Of a stretch of DNA of 27,610 nt, positions 17,221-27,610 are shown piece after piece. A program made the translations under genes and the position numbers. Position 1 is the stretch's first letter, and each line of letters starts with the position of its first letter. The DNA is from Candidatus Delongbacteria bacterium (lineage in GTDB: Bacteria; UBA4055), in NCBI GenBank assembly GCA_016937995.1, contig JAFGVM010000036.1, positions 1-27,610 of the forward strand. Direction: 5' to 3'. Under the pieces are notes generated by a model. The model was not told the DNA's origin, searched no databases, and saw only the letters and a program-made list of their open reading frames with translations.

Positions 17221-19461
17221 ATGAAGAAAGTTATGATGGGAATAGTATTGTTGATGATGACCATACTTATATCCAAACCGGTTCAGATCGATACTGCAAG
17301 AAATATCGCTTTGAATTGGTACAAAGGTTTTTCAGCCAGTAAAACAATTCCGAATATTTCTTCAGTTGATGAGATCAGATCGAATGATAACGTAGACATT
17401 TATGTTTTCAATATGACCGAAGGTTTTGTTCTTGTGGCCGGGGATGATGCATCTGTTCCGGTATTAGGCTACTCTTTTGATAAAACTTTTGTTTATTCTG
17501 AGGAAAAATCCAACATTAAATTCTGGATCGATGCTTACAGAACAAGTTTGAAAGAAATAAGATATAACGAACTAAGCAATGAAACTACTCTTGAAAAATG
17601 GAATAATATCCTTAGCAATGAGATAGTATCAAAGGATTCTAAGGCTGTTGCCCCCTTGTTGTCAACAACTTGGAATCAAAGTCCGATCTACAACGACTAT
17701 TGTCCACTGGATGGCGGAAGTTTATCAGTAGTTGGTTGTGTAGCTACTGCAATGTCACAGATCATGAAGTACCATTCTTATCCTCTTCACGGGAACGGTG
17801 AGCACAGCTATAATGAATTAGGTCAGGACCTTTACGTTAATTATTTTTTCTCAACATATAACTGGGATGAAATGCCGAACAGTTTATCTTCCAGCTCAAC
17901 TCCTGTTCAAAAGCATGAAGTTGCACAGATATCATACCATGCCGGTGTTTCTGTTGAGATGATGTATGGAGCAGATGGTTCAGGAGCTTATTCCACAGAC
18001 GTTCCTTATGCACTGAAAACTTACTTCAAATATAATGCAGGTGTAGGATATTATGACAGGTCTTCTTTTAACAGTGTACAATGGCATACATTGATATTAG
18101 AGAACCTTGACAATGCTTTACCTGTATACTATTCCGGTCAGGGACCGGACGGTGGTCATGCTTTTGTATGTGACGGTTATCAGGCTACAGATTATTTCCA
18201 TTTTAACTGGGGATGGGGTGGCTCTTCAGACGGATATTATTACTTGGACAACCTTAATCCCGGTGGTTTAACTTTTAATGATTGGCAGGCTGTAGTCAAA
18301 GATATCAGACCGGGAACTGTTGACCTTGTTGTAGATCCGTTCATTGAAGATTTTGTCAGCAGCGAAAACGAAATTGTGATAAATTTAAATGATTACTTTA
18401 CAAGTATTTCCGGTGGAACGATCGATTATTCAATTGATGATTCCAGTAACATTGTCGGGCTGACACATTCCATTACAGACAGCATATTAACTTTAACAAA
18501 AGTCGGGAATGGTCTTTCTAAGATAGTTGTTGTTGGAACGAACAAATCTGATGGAATATTTGATGATTTTTATGTTAGATTCGGAGACCCGCTTCCGCTT
18601 GCCGGATTTGGCAATACTTATAATTTAAACGCCTTTTCCACAATAAACGCAGGTAATAATTCAGAATTGAATGCAATGGAAAAACTTTCTGTTTCCATGT
18701 GGATAAAGTTAAATCAGACCGGTATAAATCAGGGAGTTATTTCTAAAGCATCAAGCACCTCATCCGGATGGTACATACAGGTACAAAGTAATAATATAAT
18801 TAAATTCTTTATCAAAACACAGGACGGGCTTCTCAGAAAACTTTACAGTTTAAACGCTTTAAATGCTGATGAGTGGTATCATCTTGCCGTTGTTTACGAT
18901 GGAAAAGACTTTGTTATGTATCTTAACGGGGAATACGAAAATCAAAAAGTATCCTATCCTACAGCTTCAGCGATCCAGCATGACGAATCCGACGATCTAA
19001 TTCTGGGTTCTGCACCGGGTATGTATTTTGACGGTTCTATTGATGAAGTTTGTGTCTGGGACCAGCCAAAATCACTGGATTTCTTCAGAAGTATTCTTCA
19101 AAATCAACCTTCTACTTCTGATCCTGATCTGGTTTCATACTGGAATATCGATGAAGGTTTTTACAGTGAGATCTCAGACCAGAACAATTTGAACAATGCA
19201 TTGATCGAAAATATAAACCTGGAATACTGGACAAATTCTACTGCTCCAGTAAGATATTTCATTCCAACAAATACTAATGCAACCGGAACACTACCCGGAG
19301 AAAAAGGTGCCGAATTGACATATGCAATAGTTGATAACGGTTCTTTGGGAACAATGTCAATTCTTGATCCGGTAGCCGGAACTTTCGAATACACACCTGA
19401 CACTGATGTTTTCGGTGTAGATACTCTTACTTACAAAGTATCGAAAGATATCTATTCTTAA
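17221..19461 (+). CDS. Secreted C10 (streptopain-like) cysteine protease with LamG domain; sorting tail cut off by in-frame stop
   Basis: 746 residues. A signal peptide (MKKVMMGIVLLMMTILIS) precedes a Spi_C10-like propeptide (about 22-130; VDIYVFNMTEGFVLVAGDDASVPVLGYS is characteristic). The C10 catalytic domain (about 135-365) has Cys173 in VVGCVATAMSQIMKYH and His313 in GGHAFVCDGY, then YFHFNWGWGGSSDGYYYL. A LamG/concanavalin-like domain runs from about 461 to 660 (LSVSMWIKLN, EWYHLAVVYDG, GSIDEVCVWDQ). A cadherin-like or Big-type repeat (about 675-746; TFEYTPDTDVFGVDTLTYKV) is interrupted by TAA at 19459-19461. The same frame continues into a type IX sorting domain. As written the protein would be secreted to the periplasm but not sorted; the intact form would be a surface or extracellular protease. 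Confidence 0.9.
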   Translation: MKKVMMGIVLLMMTILISKPVQIDTARNIALNWYKGFSASKTIPNISSVDEIRSNDNVDIYVFNMTEGFVLVAGDDASVPVLGYSFDKTFVYSEEKSNIKFWIDAYRTSLKEIRYNELSNETTLEKWNNILSNEIVSKDSKAVAPLLSTTWNQSPIYNDYCPLDGGSLSVVGCVATAMSQIMKYHSYPLHGNGEHSYNELGQDLYVNYFFSTYNWDEMPNSLSSSSTPVQKHEVAQISYHAGVSVEMMYGADGSGAYSTDVPYALKTYFKYNAGVGYYDRSSFNSVQWHTLILENLDNALPVYYSGQGPDGGHAFVCDGYQATDYFHFNWGWGGSSDGYYYLDNLNPGGLTFNDWQAVVKDIRPGTVDLVVDPFIEDFVSSENEIVINLNDYFTSISGGTIDYSIDDSSNIVGLTHSITDSILTLTKVGNGLSKIVVVGTNKSDGIFDDFYVRFGDPLPLAGFGNTYNLNAFSTINAGNNSELNAMEKLSVSMWIKLNQTGINQGVISKASSTSSGWYIQVQSNNIIKFFIKTQDGLLRKLYSLNALNADEWYHLAVVYDGKDFVMYLNGEYENQKVSYPTASAIQHDESDDLILGSAPGMYFDGSIDEVCVWDQPKSLDFFRSILQNQPSTSDPDLVSYWNIDEGFYSEISDQNNLNNALIENINLEYWTNSTAPVRYFIPTNTNATGTLPGEKGAELTYAIVDNGSLGTMSILDPVAGTFEYTPDTDVFGVDTLTYKVSKDIYS

Positions 19462-19803
19462 GAAGCGATCTCTTTGATCTTCGATATTAAGGACGGCAAC
19501 AGCATAGAAGATACATATGTACCGACTTCAGCAGTTCTGTATCAGAACTATCCGAATCCTTTTAACCCTGAAACTACTATCTCTTTCTCTATTGACGAAA
19601 GCGGTCCTGTAAAACTTGTGGTCTTTGACAGAATGGGTAGGAGTATTAAAACCCTTTCAGAAGGTTTTAGCGATAAGGGTGTTCATAAAATAAAATGGGA
19701 TGGCAAGAATAATTTCGGAGAGTCCGTATCTTCCGGAGTATACTATTACATGCTTAAGACCAGGAATTTCACTGATGTAAAGAAAGCGTTACTGATAAAA
19801 TAA
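19462..19803 (+). pseudogene. Detached T9SS type A C-terminal sorting domain of the C10 protease
   Basis: After the TAA at 19459-19461 the frame continues unchanged for 113 codons to a TAA at 19801-19803. The first residues (EAISLIFDI) complete the last strand of the cadherin-like repeat. LYQNYPNPFNPETTISFSI begins a type IX secretion sorting domain; VKLVVFDRMGRSIKTL, KIKWDGKNNFGESVSSGVYYYML and a short basic end complete it. A typical domain of this kind is 80-95 residues and this one looks whole. It cannot work alone because it has no signal peptide and no ribosome-binding site. One base change (for example TCA to TAA) or a sequence error would explain it; readthrough is the other possibility. 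Full length would be about 860 residues. Confidence 0.85.
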
Positions 19804-24874: not shown

Positions 24875-26095
24875 ATGTACTACATCTGGGAATCCATTAA
24901 AATATCATTAAACATCATCAGAGAGAATAAACTGCGATCGTTCCTGACACTTCTCGGTATCATGATCGGTGTTGCAACAATAATTTTTGTCCATTCTGTG
25001 CTTGTAGGTGCTGAAAAGTTTATTGTACAAGAACTTTCATCGATGGGTTCAAACACTCTTCATATTTCAAAATACTCCTGGATGGGAAGGGACTGGAGAG
25101 TAGAAAGAAAGAGAAAACCTCTGACAATCGAGAATGCAGATTTTATCAGAGATAATTCCAACATGATCGAATATGTCTCCCCTATTATTTATTCCTGGAG
25201 TCATGTTAAATTCGGATCAAATACTCTATCCTACGTTTCACTGATCGGCTCTAATGAATATTACGAATATACATCAGATTCAGCACCGGAATCAGGTCGT
25301 TTTTTTAATTCAGGTGAAGTTGAAAGAAAATCTGATATTGTGTTACTTGGAAGTCAGGTCGCAGATCTTTTATTTGCTGATATCGATCCTGTGGGTCAGT
25401 ATGTAAAACTGAACGGAAAAAAATTCTATGTAATAGGTGTTTTGAAAAAAAAAGGTGAGATGTTCGGTAATAATATGGATGAAAAAGTTATAATTCCGAT
25501 CACTACTCTTAAAAAATATTTTAATTACAGCAGAAGACATGGTATTGAGATTTCAGTTAAAACAAAAGACCCCACTAAAACAAATGAAACTATTGATAAT
25601 ATTACATCTCTGCTCAGAGTAAGCCGGGGGTTAAAGCCTGATGAGGATAATGATTTCAGTATTAATGAAATAAGTCAGATCCTGGATTTTCTGAACAAGA
25701 TCACCGGTTCACTGCAAATACTACTTTTCGTCATAGGTTCCCTTTCTCTTCTTGTAGGTGGAATTGGGATAATGAATATTATGCTTGTTTCAGTTACACA
25801 GAGAACCAAAGAGATCGGCACCAGAAAAGCTCTCGGTGCTACGAAAAGTCTTATTCTCACACAATTTATAATTGAATCGGTCATTCTTTGCTCTTTCGGA
25901 GGTTTCATGGGAATTATTGCAGGTTTCTCTGTTGCTGCACTTATAAGCAGCTTCACACCTCTACCGTACAGCATCTCTCTAATATCAATGATGATCGGTG
26001 TCGGTTTTTCAACACTTGTCGGTGTTGTCTTCGGTTATTATCCTGCGAACAAAGCTGCGAAACTGAACCCTATTAACGCTCTAAGGTACGAATAA
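24875..26095 (+). CDS. ABC transporter permease, FtsX/MacB family (first of two)
   Basis: 406 residues. TM1 (about 20-45, LRSFLTLLGIMIGVATIIFVHSVL) is followed by a periplasmic MacB_PCD domain (about 46-275), with ELSSMGSNTLHISKYSWMG, SPESGR-like PESGRFFNSGEV, VLLGSQVADLLF and KFYVIGVLKKKGEMFG. Three helices come at the C-terminus (about 285-310, 335-355, 365-385), with the intracellular GTRKALGATKSLILTQFIIESV coupling helix that contacts the ATPase. The ending PANKAAKLNPINALRYE is a family hallmark. There is no ATPase domain, so it depends on the upstream one. The stop overlaps the next ATG (TAATG at 26093-26097). It is about the same length and layout as the next protein, which suggests a heterodimer. 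Confidence 0.93.
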   Translation: MYYIWESIKISLNIIRENKLRSFLTLLGIMIGVATIIFVHSVLVGAEKFIVQELSSMGSNTLHISKYSWMGRDWRVERKRKPLTIENADFIRDNSNMIEYVSPIIYSWSHVKFGSNTLSYVSLIGSNEYYEYTSDSAPESGRFFNSGEVERKSDIVLLGSQVADLLFADIDPVGQYVKLNGKKFYVIGVLKKKGEMFGNNMDEKVIIPITTLKKYFNYSRRHGIEISVKTKDPTKTNETIDNITSLLRVSRGLKPDEDNDFSINEISQILDFLNKITGSLQILLFVIGSLSLLVGGIGIMNIMLVSVTQRTKEIGTRKALGATKSLILTQFIIESVILCSFGGFMGIIAGFSVAALISSFTPLPYSISLISMMIGVGFSTLVGVVFGYYPANKAAKLNPINALRYE

Positions 26096-27315
26096 TGATA
26101 CTTGACCTTCTAAAAATAGCTGTATCATCTATCTTTAAGAACAAGATGCGTTCCTTTTTAACTATGCTTGGTATTATAATAGGTATCATGGTGATAATTC
26201 TTATGCAGGCTGCTATTGAAGGATTCAGAAGTGAAATGCAGAAAGAGATCAATAAACTCGGTGCTGCAAGTTTCTTTATTACCAAAAGACCTACCATGGG
26301 TGGTGATCACGACTGGAAAAAATACTGGAAGAGACCGAATATTACTTTTGATTATGCTGAAAAGATAGAGAATTCATGTAACAGTGTTGAGATAGTGATA
26401 CCTTTGCTTAGAAAATGGGGTCAGGAAGTTAAATTCGGTAATAAGAAGACTGAGCAGAATATTACAGTCAACGGTGCTACAGATAACTGGTTACAGCTTT
26501 CTGGTTATGATATTGAATCAGGTCGATATTTCACAGGTACTGAACTGAATGAAGGTATCGAAAATGTTATTATTGGTAAAAGTGTTCAGAATAAACTATT
26601 CGAATTTATTGATCCGATCGATCAATATGTATTTATCAGAGGATTAAGATTTAAAGTTATCGGTGTTTTCTCAGAAAAAGGTAAAAGTTTCGGTCAAGAT
26701 CAGGATAACTTTGTCGCTATTTCAGCTCATCATTTTCAGAGAATGTTCGGCAAGGACAGGAATGTTGATCTACTGGTAGCTGCAAAGGATCAGACTCTTC
26801 TTTCCAGAGCTGTAGATGAAACCATTGTTGCTTTAAGAAGGATGAGAAATTTAAGGTCAGATGATGAAAATGATTTCGAGATCACTACTAAAGATGAAAT
26901 TGCTACTAAGATGAATAACATTATTGCCATTATCTATCTTGCAGCTTTGTCTATTGGTGGAATGTCTCTGGTAGTCGGCAGTATCGGTATTATGAATATT
27001 ATGCTGGTTTCTATAACTGAAAGAACAAAAGAGATCGGTCTGAGAAGATCTGTCGGAGCAAATAAAAATAATATCATGGTTCAATTTTTAATAGAAGCGG
27101 TGATCTTGAGTCTTTTCGGTGGATCTTTCGGTATCGGAGCCGGTGTAGGAATTTCAAAACTTGTTTCTACATTTTCAAAGATATCTACCGTTGCACCTCT
27201 CTGGACGATAATGACAGCTTTCTCTGTATCAGTCCTTATAGGATTAGTCGCAGGAATCTATCCTGCCATGAAAGCCGGGAAGCTGAATCCGATCGATGCT
27301 CTACGGCAGGAGTAG
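26095..27315 (+). CDS. ABC transporter permease, FtsX/MacB family (second of two)
   Basis: 406 residues, a paralogue of the preceding permease. TM1 (about 20-42, FLTMLGIIIGIMVIILMQAAIEG), then a periplasmic MacB_PCD domain containing INKLGAASFFITKRPTMGGD, DIESGRYFTGTELNEG, VIIGKSVQNKLFEF and RFKVIGVFSEKGKSFGQDQDN. C-terminal helices are IAIIYLAALSIGGMSLVVGSIGIMN, IEAVILSLFGGSFGIGAGVGIS and a last one ending IYPAMKAGKLNPIDALRQE. The coupling segment is ERTKEIGLRRSVGANKNNIMVQFL. The two permeases share the same order and spacing of these motifs, so an old tandem duplication is likely. The stop at 27313-27315 lies 3 bp from the convergent transposase stop, with no terminator between. Confidence 0.93.
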   Translation: MILDLLKIAVSSIFKNKMRSFLTMLGIIIGIMVIILMQAAIEGFRSEMQKEINKLGAASFFITKRPTMGGDHDWKKYWKRPNITFDYAEKIENSCNSVEIVIPLLRKWGQEVKFGNKKTEQNITVNGATDNWLQLSGYDIESGRYFTGTELNEGIENVIIGKSVQNKLFEFIDPIDQYVFIRGLRFKVIGVFSEKGKSFGQDQDNFVAISAHHFQRMFGKDRNVDLLVAAKDQTLLSRAVDETIVALRRMRNLRSDDENDFEITTKDEIATKMNNIIAIIYLAALSIGGMSLVVGSIGIMNIMLVSITERTKEIGLRRSVGANKNNIMVQFLIEAVILSLFGGSFGIGAGVGISKLVSTFSKISTVAPLWTIMTAFSVSVLIGLVAGIYPAMKAGKLNPIDALRQE

Positions 27316-27318
27316 GCA

Positions 27319-27610
27319 TTACCAATCCAATGGATTATCACGAATGTATTTCCTAATTGAATACAATTCTTTTTCATTTCTGATAATATGATCGTGGAAT
27401 GATCTTTGCCATTTGAATGTGGATTTATATTTTATTTGTTTTATTTCACGCGATACATTTGATTTAAATGAACGAATCATTTCACCCAAACCATGTCGTT
27501 TATTAACTTGTTTTAATCGGTTTTGGAAATATTGCGTATTATTGGAAACCGTAGGGGACGATTCCCATTCGTCCCCTCTTCTAATGGCGTCCTGTTTAAA
27601 AATGTTGTCC
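27319..27610 (-). CDS. REP-associated tyrosine transposase (RAYT, Y1_Tnp family), C-terminal part; 5' end beyond window
   Basis: On the minus strand a frame open from the window edge runs 96 codons to TAA (complement of 27319-27321). The C-terminal part reads FKWQRSFHDHIIRNEKEL, then YSIRKYIRDNPLDW, a hallmark of Y1_Tnp/RAYT proteins. The Tyr in RKYIRDNP is the likely catalytic nucleophile. Before that comes GLGEMIRSFKSNVSREIKQI, the helix preceding the tail in this subtype. The N-terminal HUH motif and the MPNHIH-type segment should lie outside the window. The middle linker (RRGDEWESSPT) is encoded by a 9-bp-stem hairpin with a GTAG foot. RAYTs are single-copy, domesticated relatives of IS200/IS605 transposases that act on REP hairpins. 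It lacks flanking ends as visible here, so mobility of the gene itself is unproven. Confidence 0.88.
   Translation of the reverse strand, partial: DNIFKQDAIRRGDEWESSPTVSNNTQYFQNRLKQVNKRHGLGEMIRSFKSNVSREIKQIKYKSTFKWQRSFHDHIIRNEKELYSIRKYIRDNPLDW
27551..27577. repeat. GTAG-footed hairpin inside the RAYT reading frame
   Basis: AGGGGACGA (27553-27561) and TCGTCCCCT (27569-27577) form a perfect 9-bp stem with a TTCCCAT loop. GTAG is at 27551-27554. The whole lies in frame in the transposase gene without breaking it. Confidence 0.8.

Follow-up and report, generated by a model that had tools for sequence, protein, structure and literature searches.

The window analysed here is an entire contig (C80) of 27,610 nucleotides from a 2.75-Mb Candidatus Delongbacteria genome assembled in 99 contigs. 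On the minus strand, the final 292 bases contain a 96-codon frame that remains open at its 5' side where the contig ends. The features of this region are listed below by position.

26095–27315, plus strand: MacB/FtsX-type permease gene, convergent with the RAYT gene; its synteny with a congener identifies the RAYT orthologue.
27319–27609, minus strand: partial RAYT/TnpAREP coding sequence, the C-terminal 96 codons and stop, with the 5' end lost at the contig end; assigned from an NCBIfam match and the orthologue.
27346–27348, minus strand: predicted catalytic tyrosine codon, within YIRDNP; placed by alignment with the Y motif YIxNNP of subclass 2.4.
27406–27411, minus strand: WQ codons; placed by alignment, with the motif definition from PMC6006769.
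27551–27576, plus strand: in-gene REP, a GTAG foot and GGGGACGATTCCCATTCGTCCCC hairpin; the coding strand reads the hairpin, then CTAC.
27577–27580, plus strand: TCTT beside the footless end of the REP, common to several dispersed copies (AAGA before GGGG on the opposite strand).

The initial annotation read the frame as the C-terminus of a RAYT and the database evidence bears this out. The fragment matches the NCBIfam model for REP-associated tyrosine transposases (NF047646) with an E-value of 7e-10 over model positions 68–132, and both the family profile and the catalytic tyrosine motif are found over the C-terminal half. The score lies under the model's 80-bit whole-protein cut-off because half of the protein is missing, and truncation, rather than absence of the family, likewise explains why a Pfam search with the fragment alone returned no match. 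A search of PHROGs gave a single marginal match, to a family of unknown function, and plasmid records contained distant relatives only. The orthologue, in a congener (L021), adjoins the equivalent MacB-type permease in identical convergent order and its tail is 68% identical to the window fragment. It carries the MPNHIH motif and matches Y1_Tnp above the cut-off, such that the profile match anticipated for the window gene is realised in the orthologue and not in the fragment.

The HUH core was also said to be missing. The HUH half is indeed absent, but the fragment already holds the catalytic tyrosine motif, so it is only the HUH half that has been lost. With the orthologue as query, this N-terminal half was not found on the other contigs of the genome. 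A single Y1_Tnp match turned up in the genome, on contig C56, but it belongs to a different gene and was ruled out as the missing half. Since the N-terminal half is not in the assembly, we infer the HUH motif and the intactness of the window gene from the orthologue. The signature of subclass 2.4 is thus divided between the two genes: WQ and YIRDNP (with D for the first N of NNP) lie in the window, and MPNHIH is seen only in L021. We assign the window gene to the RAYTs and, on this divided signature, probably to TnpAREP subclass 2.4 (RAYT group 4), with the N-terminal half seen only in the orthologue. The WQ residues have been reported as contacts to the GTAG guide in TnpAREP (PMC6006769). Two further RAYT loci were noted: a second gene of 205 aa (L176, G000:C41), with another hairpin (GGGCGAATAACCATTCGCCC) in its linker, and a remnant lacking the N-terminal half (L177, G000:C81).

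Comparison of the tail with L021 over 60 codons gives a dN of about 0.18, a dS of about 1.6 and a dN/dS of about 0.11, a ratio that is rough, with dS near saturation, yet clearly below 1. The tail is under purifying selection and, with the frame also open, the gene does not appear to be a decayed pseudogene. DNA similarity between the two contigs ends at base 27504, near the start of the REP-bearing linker. In L021 the HUH motif precedes this linker and the in-gene REP occupies the place equivalent to that in the window gene. The L021 linker holds two hairpins in opposite orientation and, given this inverted pair, the lost 5' part of the window gene probably carries a second, inverted REP beyond the contig end. 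Tandem peptide repeats (TKPPMFS; MRHDE) lie between the two in-gene REPs of L021 and of another relative, L023.

The hairpin itself was described correctly by the initial annotation, down to the base: a perfect 9-bp stem, AGGGGACGA/TCGTCCCCT, pairs 27553–27561 with 27569–27577 around a 7-nt loop, has a GTAG foot at 27551–27554 and sits in frame in the linker, upstream of WQ and the tyrosine. As single-stranded DNA it folds with −9.6 kcal/mol (z −2.8). A palindrome of this kind could in principle be a by-product of the residues RGDEWESSPT, bearing no relation to REPs. Recoding these residues synonymously with the codon usage of the contig produces a stem of at least 9 bp in 2.2% of cases, and the stem by itself is only mildly unusual. 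It is the dispersed copies that place the hairpin beyond chance: exact copies with the same foot occur elsewhere in the genome, where shuffles of the window lead us to expect 0. These copies refute a chance palindrome, to which we attach a negligible probability.

A genome-wide search that allowed up to 3 mismatches placed the 23-bp core at 17 sites and its reversed control at none. The pattern GGGGAC-N11-GTCCCC matched 29 sites, giving the family at least 29 copies, the in-gene one among them. A GTA(G) foot is found at exactly one end in 24 of these 29 sites and at both ends in none (0/29), and most of the sites lie outside long open frames. The association with dispersed GTAG-tagged REPs by which RAYTs are recognised is therefore present. 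The three genomes of the genus have copy numbers of 29, 31 and 11; outside it, the family turned up in one of 16 genomes, as a single copy. Among the genomes searched, the family is essentially confined to the host genus. Other palindromes were also encountered. An intergenic perfect 9-bp stem at 2384–2404 (AGACGTAGTCGTACTACGTCT) resembles a second REP-like family (GTAAAGACG...CGTCT), which was found at L149 and L151 and in the L023 linker. Several additional families of GTAG-tagged palindromes, such as GGATGAACACATAGGTTCATCCctac and GGGAAGGCGTGGAAGCCTTCCCctac, lie beside dispersed copies in this genome (flanking stretches L160, L162 and L170). Elsewhere on the contig, 17221–19803 holds a C10 peptidase that has a Spi inhibitor propeptide and a laminin-G domain; a separate frame comes next, with an end resembling a T9SS sorting tail, and the two may be a single gene interrupted by a stop or frameshift.

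We surveyed 94 relatives from many phyla in which the HUH, WQ and Y motifs could be recognised; L048/L127 and L043/L142 are each one gene met twice in this set. A perfect linker stem of at least 8 bp is present in 78 of the 94. Against synonymous shuffling, the linkers contain 107 hairpins where 9.6 are expected, and the regions outside the linker 15 where 5.9 are expected. Nine of the 94 have neither a linker hairpin nor a foot, which implies that the REP is not essential. GTAG precedes CTAC in 56 of the 94, either as a 28/29-nt double-foot element, a form already described (PMC6006769), or as an inverted REP pair. The fixed 28- or 29-nt double-foot elements make up 30 of these 56 spans. The span from GTAG to CTAC is divisible by three in only 1 of the 56 genes, and the CTAC foot stands in the third frame in only 2 of 74, though no stop would result there; kin genes are counted separately in both figures.

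The same survey bears on the possibility that the hairpin, in mRNA or in an exposed single strand, is an operator through which RAYT or a pausing polymerase limits expression of the gene. Such autoregulation would be in keeping with the stable stems that most relatives have, often in inverted pairs. REP hairpins have also been suggested to down-regulate RAYT expression, in the way that hairpins down-regulate IS200 transposases (PMC3733652). However, the position of the hairpin within the linker varies, some genes have no hairpin at all, and a one-sided GTAG foot is better suited to DNA recognition than to an RNA switch. We regard autoregulation as improbable.

Is it the DNA or the protein that is conserved? 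The initial annotation had proposed comparing the linkers of homologues, and these keep the hairpin as DNA while the residues that it encodes change. The hairpins of the window gene and L021 encode different residues (RGDEWESSPT and TGDGKKPSPT, respectively) and both are still palindromic. L099 and L108 have 31 identical linker bases, whereas their fourfold sites agree in 2 of 24, and L104 and L147 have 30 bases in common that are read in two frames, giving RGTACRAPT and VGARHAVPL. Identical hairpins are thus shared by enzymes despite core-protein identities of only 51–77% and drift at the fourfold sites. Across 4,095 pairs, runs of at least 24 bp are common to 28 pairs in the linker and to 2 in the HUH half; for linker runs of at least 20 bp, 4 of 34 (four gene pairs) lie in different frames. 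Within one genus, L127 and L181 (76% identical) have REP stretches that agree in 36/36 and 38/39 bases, the single difference breaking the second stem in L181. Hairpin similarity also follows enzyme similarity (Mantel r 0.34, 0/999 permutations), a trend that common descent alone would give. The comparisons show that constraint or renewal acts on the linker hairpin at the DNA level, with retention and re-insertion both fitting the sequences. We take them as evidence that, across the family, in-gene hairpins are conserved as DNA rather than as residues; re-insertion of the same REP would also produce this pattern.

Searches for four in-gene hairpins covered 20 genomes each. Where the genome has a RAYT that carries the searched hairpin, a further copy was present in 13 of 18 cases, with up to 123 copies in all; no further exact copy was found in the other 5 of the 18. 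The remaining genome-hairpin combinations had any copy in 7 of 62, and some of these may have another RAYT. In one genome (G036), the searched hairpin itself is found in L026, in the open frame immediately before the HUH half. An in-gene hairpin is predictive of the family dispersed in its host.

The predicted structure of a congener's RAYT (L127) has a fold that matches TnpAREP and the IS200/IS605 transposases. The core blocks mostly exceed a pLDDT of 90. Most of the linker falls in a disordered segment at 43–55, flanked by the strand that follows HUH and by the long helix after it. The TnpAREP of E. coli cuts REPs that are single-stranded and recognises their GTAG (PMC6006769, PMC8266576). 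By analogy, single-stranded DNA carrying the hairpin and its foot would be what the enzyme encoded in the window recognises, and this enzyme might mobilise the dispersed REP copies. The words target and self-targeting in the initial annotation belong to this predicted step. A REP would have entered the linker that joins the HUH half to the tyrosine half. We propose that disorder of this segment makes the encoded residues tolerable, and that the REP now persists as DNA since it is carried along with the very enzyme by which it is recognised. That the linker of this RAYT gene is partly encoded by the host's own GTAG-tagged REP, the putative substrate of the enzyme, and that this REP is kept as DNA, we consider likely.

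What the in-gene copy does, if anything, is a separate question. REPs may simply jump widely, with harmless insertions surviving in the disordered linker of RAYT genes, where the in-gene copy would have no role. The preferred view of Quentin et al. is that the activity of the protein is little affected (PMC6006769), and intragenic REPs are known in unrelated genes (PMC3733652); the disordered linker of the L127 model and the absence of the REP from nine relatives sit well with this reading too. Identical hairpin DNA in genes with drifted fourfold sites, and in part in different frames, speaks against a neutral passenger, as does the large excess of hairpins in the RAYT linker, though repeated insertion could still account for some of this. 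A neutral passenger is a plausible account to which we give somewhat less than even weight. Tentatively, and as a possibility that we hold to be distinctly less than even, we suggest instead that the in-gene REP is a working cis part: the gene would carry the recognition sequence of its own enzyme, as a label or donor that is inherited with it. Selection on the DNA would maintain this sequence in any frame, so that the specificities of enzyme and repeat would remain coupled during horizontal transfer and would evolve together.

A RAYT gene that carries a REP of its own family was called unusual in the initial annotation, a description that does not hold, since such genes are a published hallmark of subclass 2.4 (PMC6006769). 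Quentin, Siguier, Chandler and Fichant (2018, PMC6006769) describe in-frame REPs in tnpAREP genes, generally between HuH and Y, as unique to this subclass, and on that account we count the arrangement as known. The window gene resembles TnpAREP subclass 2.4 (Bertels RAYT group 4) in its NHxH (from the orthologue), WQ and YIxxNP-like Y motif, its variable HuH-Y insertion, its in-frame REPs and the REPs dispersed in its host; we found no difference of kind, the window copy being incomplete. It also resembles the Escherichia coli TnpAREP of subclass 2.2 (PDB 4er8) in its HUH/Y1 fold and in the aligned motifs of the tail (E 1.7e-6). Unlike the window gene, subclass 2.2 has flanking REPs, mostly with bulged stems (PMC6006769). 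In having GTAG at one end, a short palindrome, mostly intergenic positions and described intragenic copies, the repeats are like the GTAG REP families of Di Nocera et al. (2013, PMC3733652). These authors list 24 such families, to which the GTAGGGGAC-N11-GTCCCC family, seen almost only in the host genus, is likened here by general features. Palindromic repeats in frame within genes are also represented by the Rickettsia palindromic elements (cited in PMC3733652). In contrast to the REP of the window, those elements are spread over unrelated genes. To our knowledge, they are not tied to any recognising enzyme.

In the largely open-access literature searched, we found no earlier report of a RAYT with an in-gene REP in Candidatus Delongbacteria, and in the texts consulted we saw neither tests of DNA-level conservation nor a matrix of in-gene hairpins against dispersed families. 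The window RAYT is a further example of a published arrangement, new in its host genus as far as we have found, and what is added here is evidence that the hairpin DNA, rather than the residues, is kept.

How REPs spread, and what ties each RAYT to its own repeat family, is a standing question. The finding adds one genus to a known pattern. Were the in-gene REP a working cis part, the bias against spans of whole codons would make its loss by exact excision self-inactivating. For the subclass as a whole, the linker of a RAYT hints at the pairing of enzymes with dispersed repeats; the in-gene copy points to its dispersed repeat and the specificity of the enzyme therefore becomes readable from sequence.
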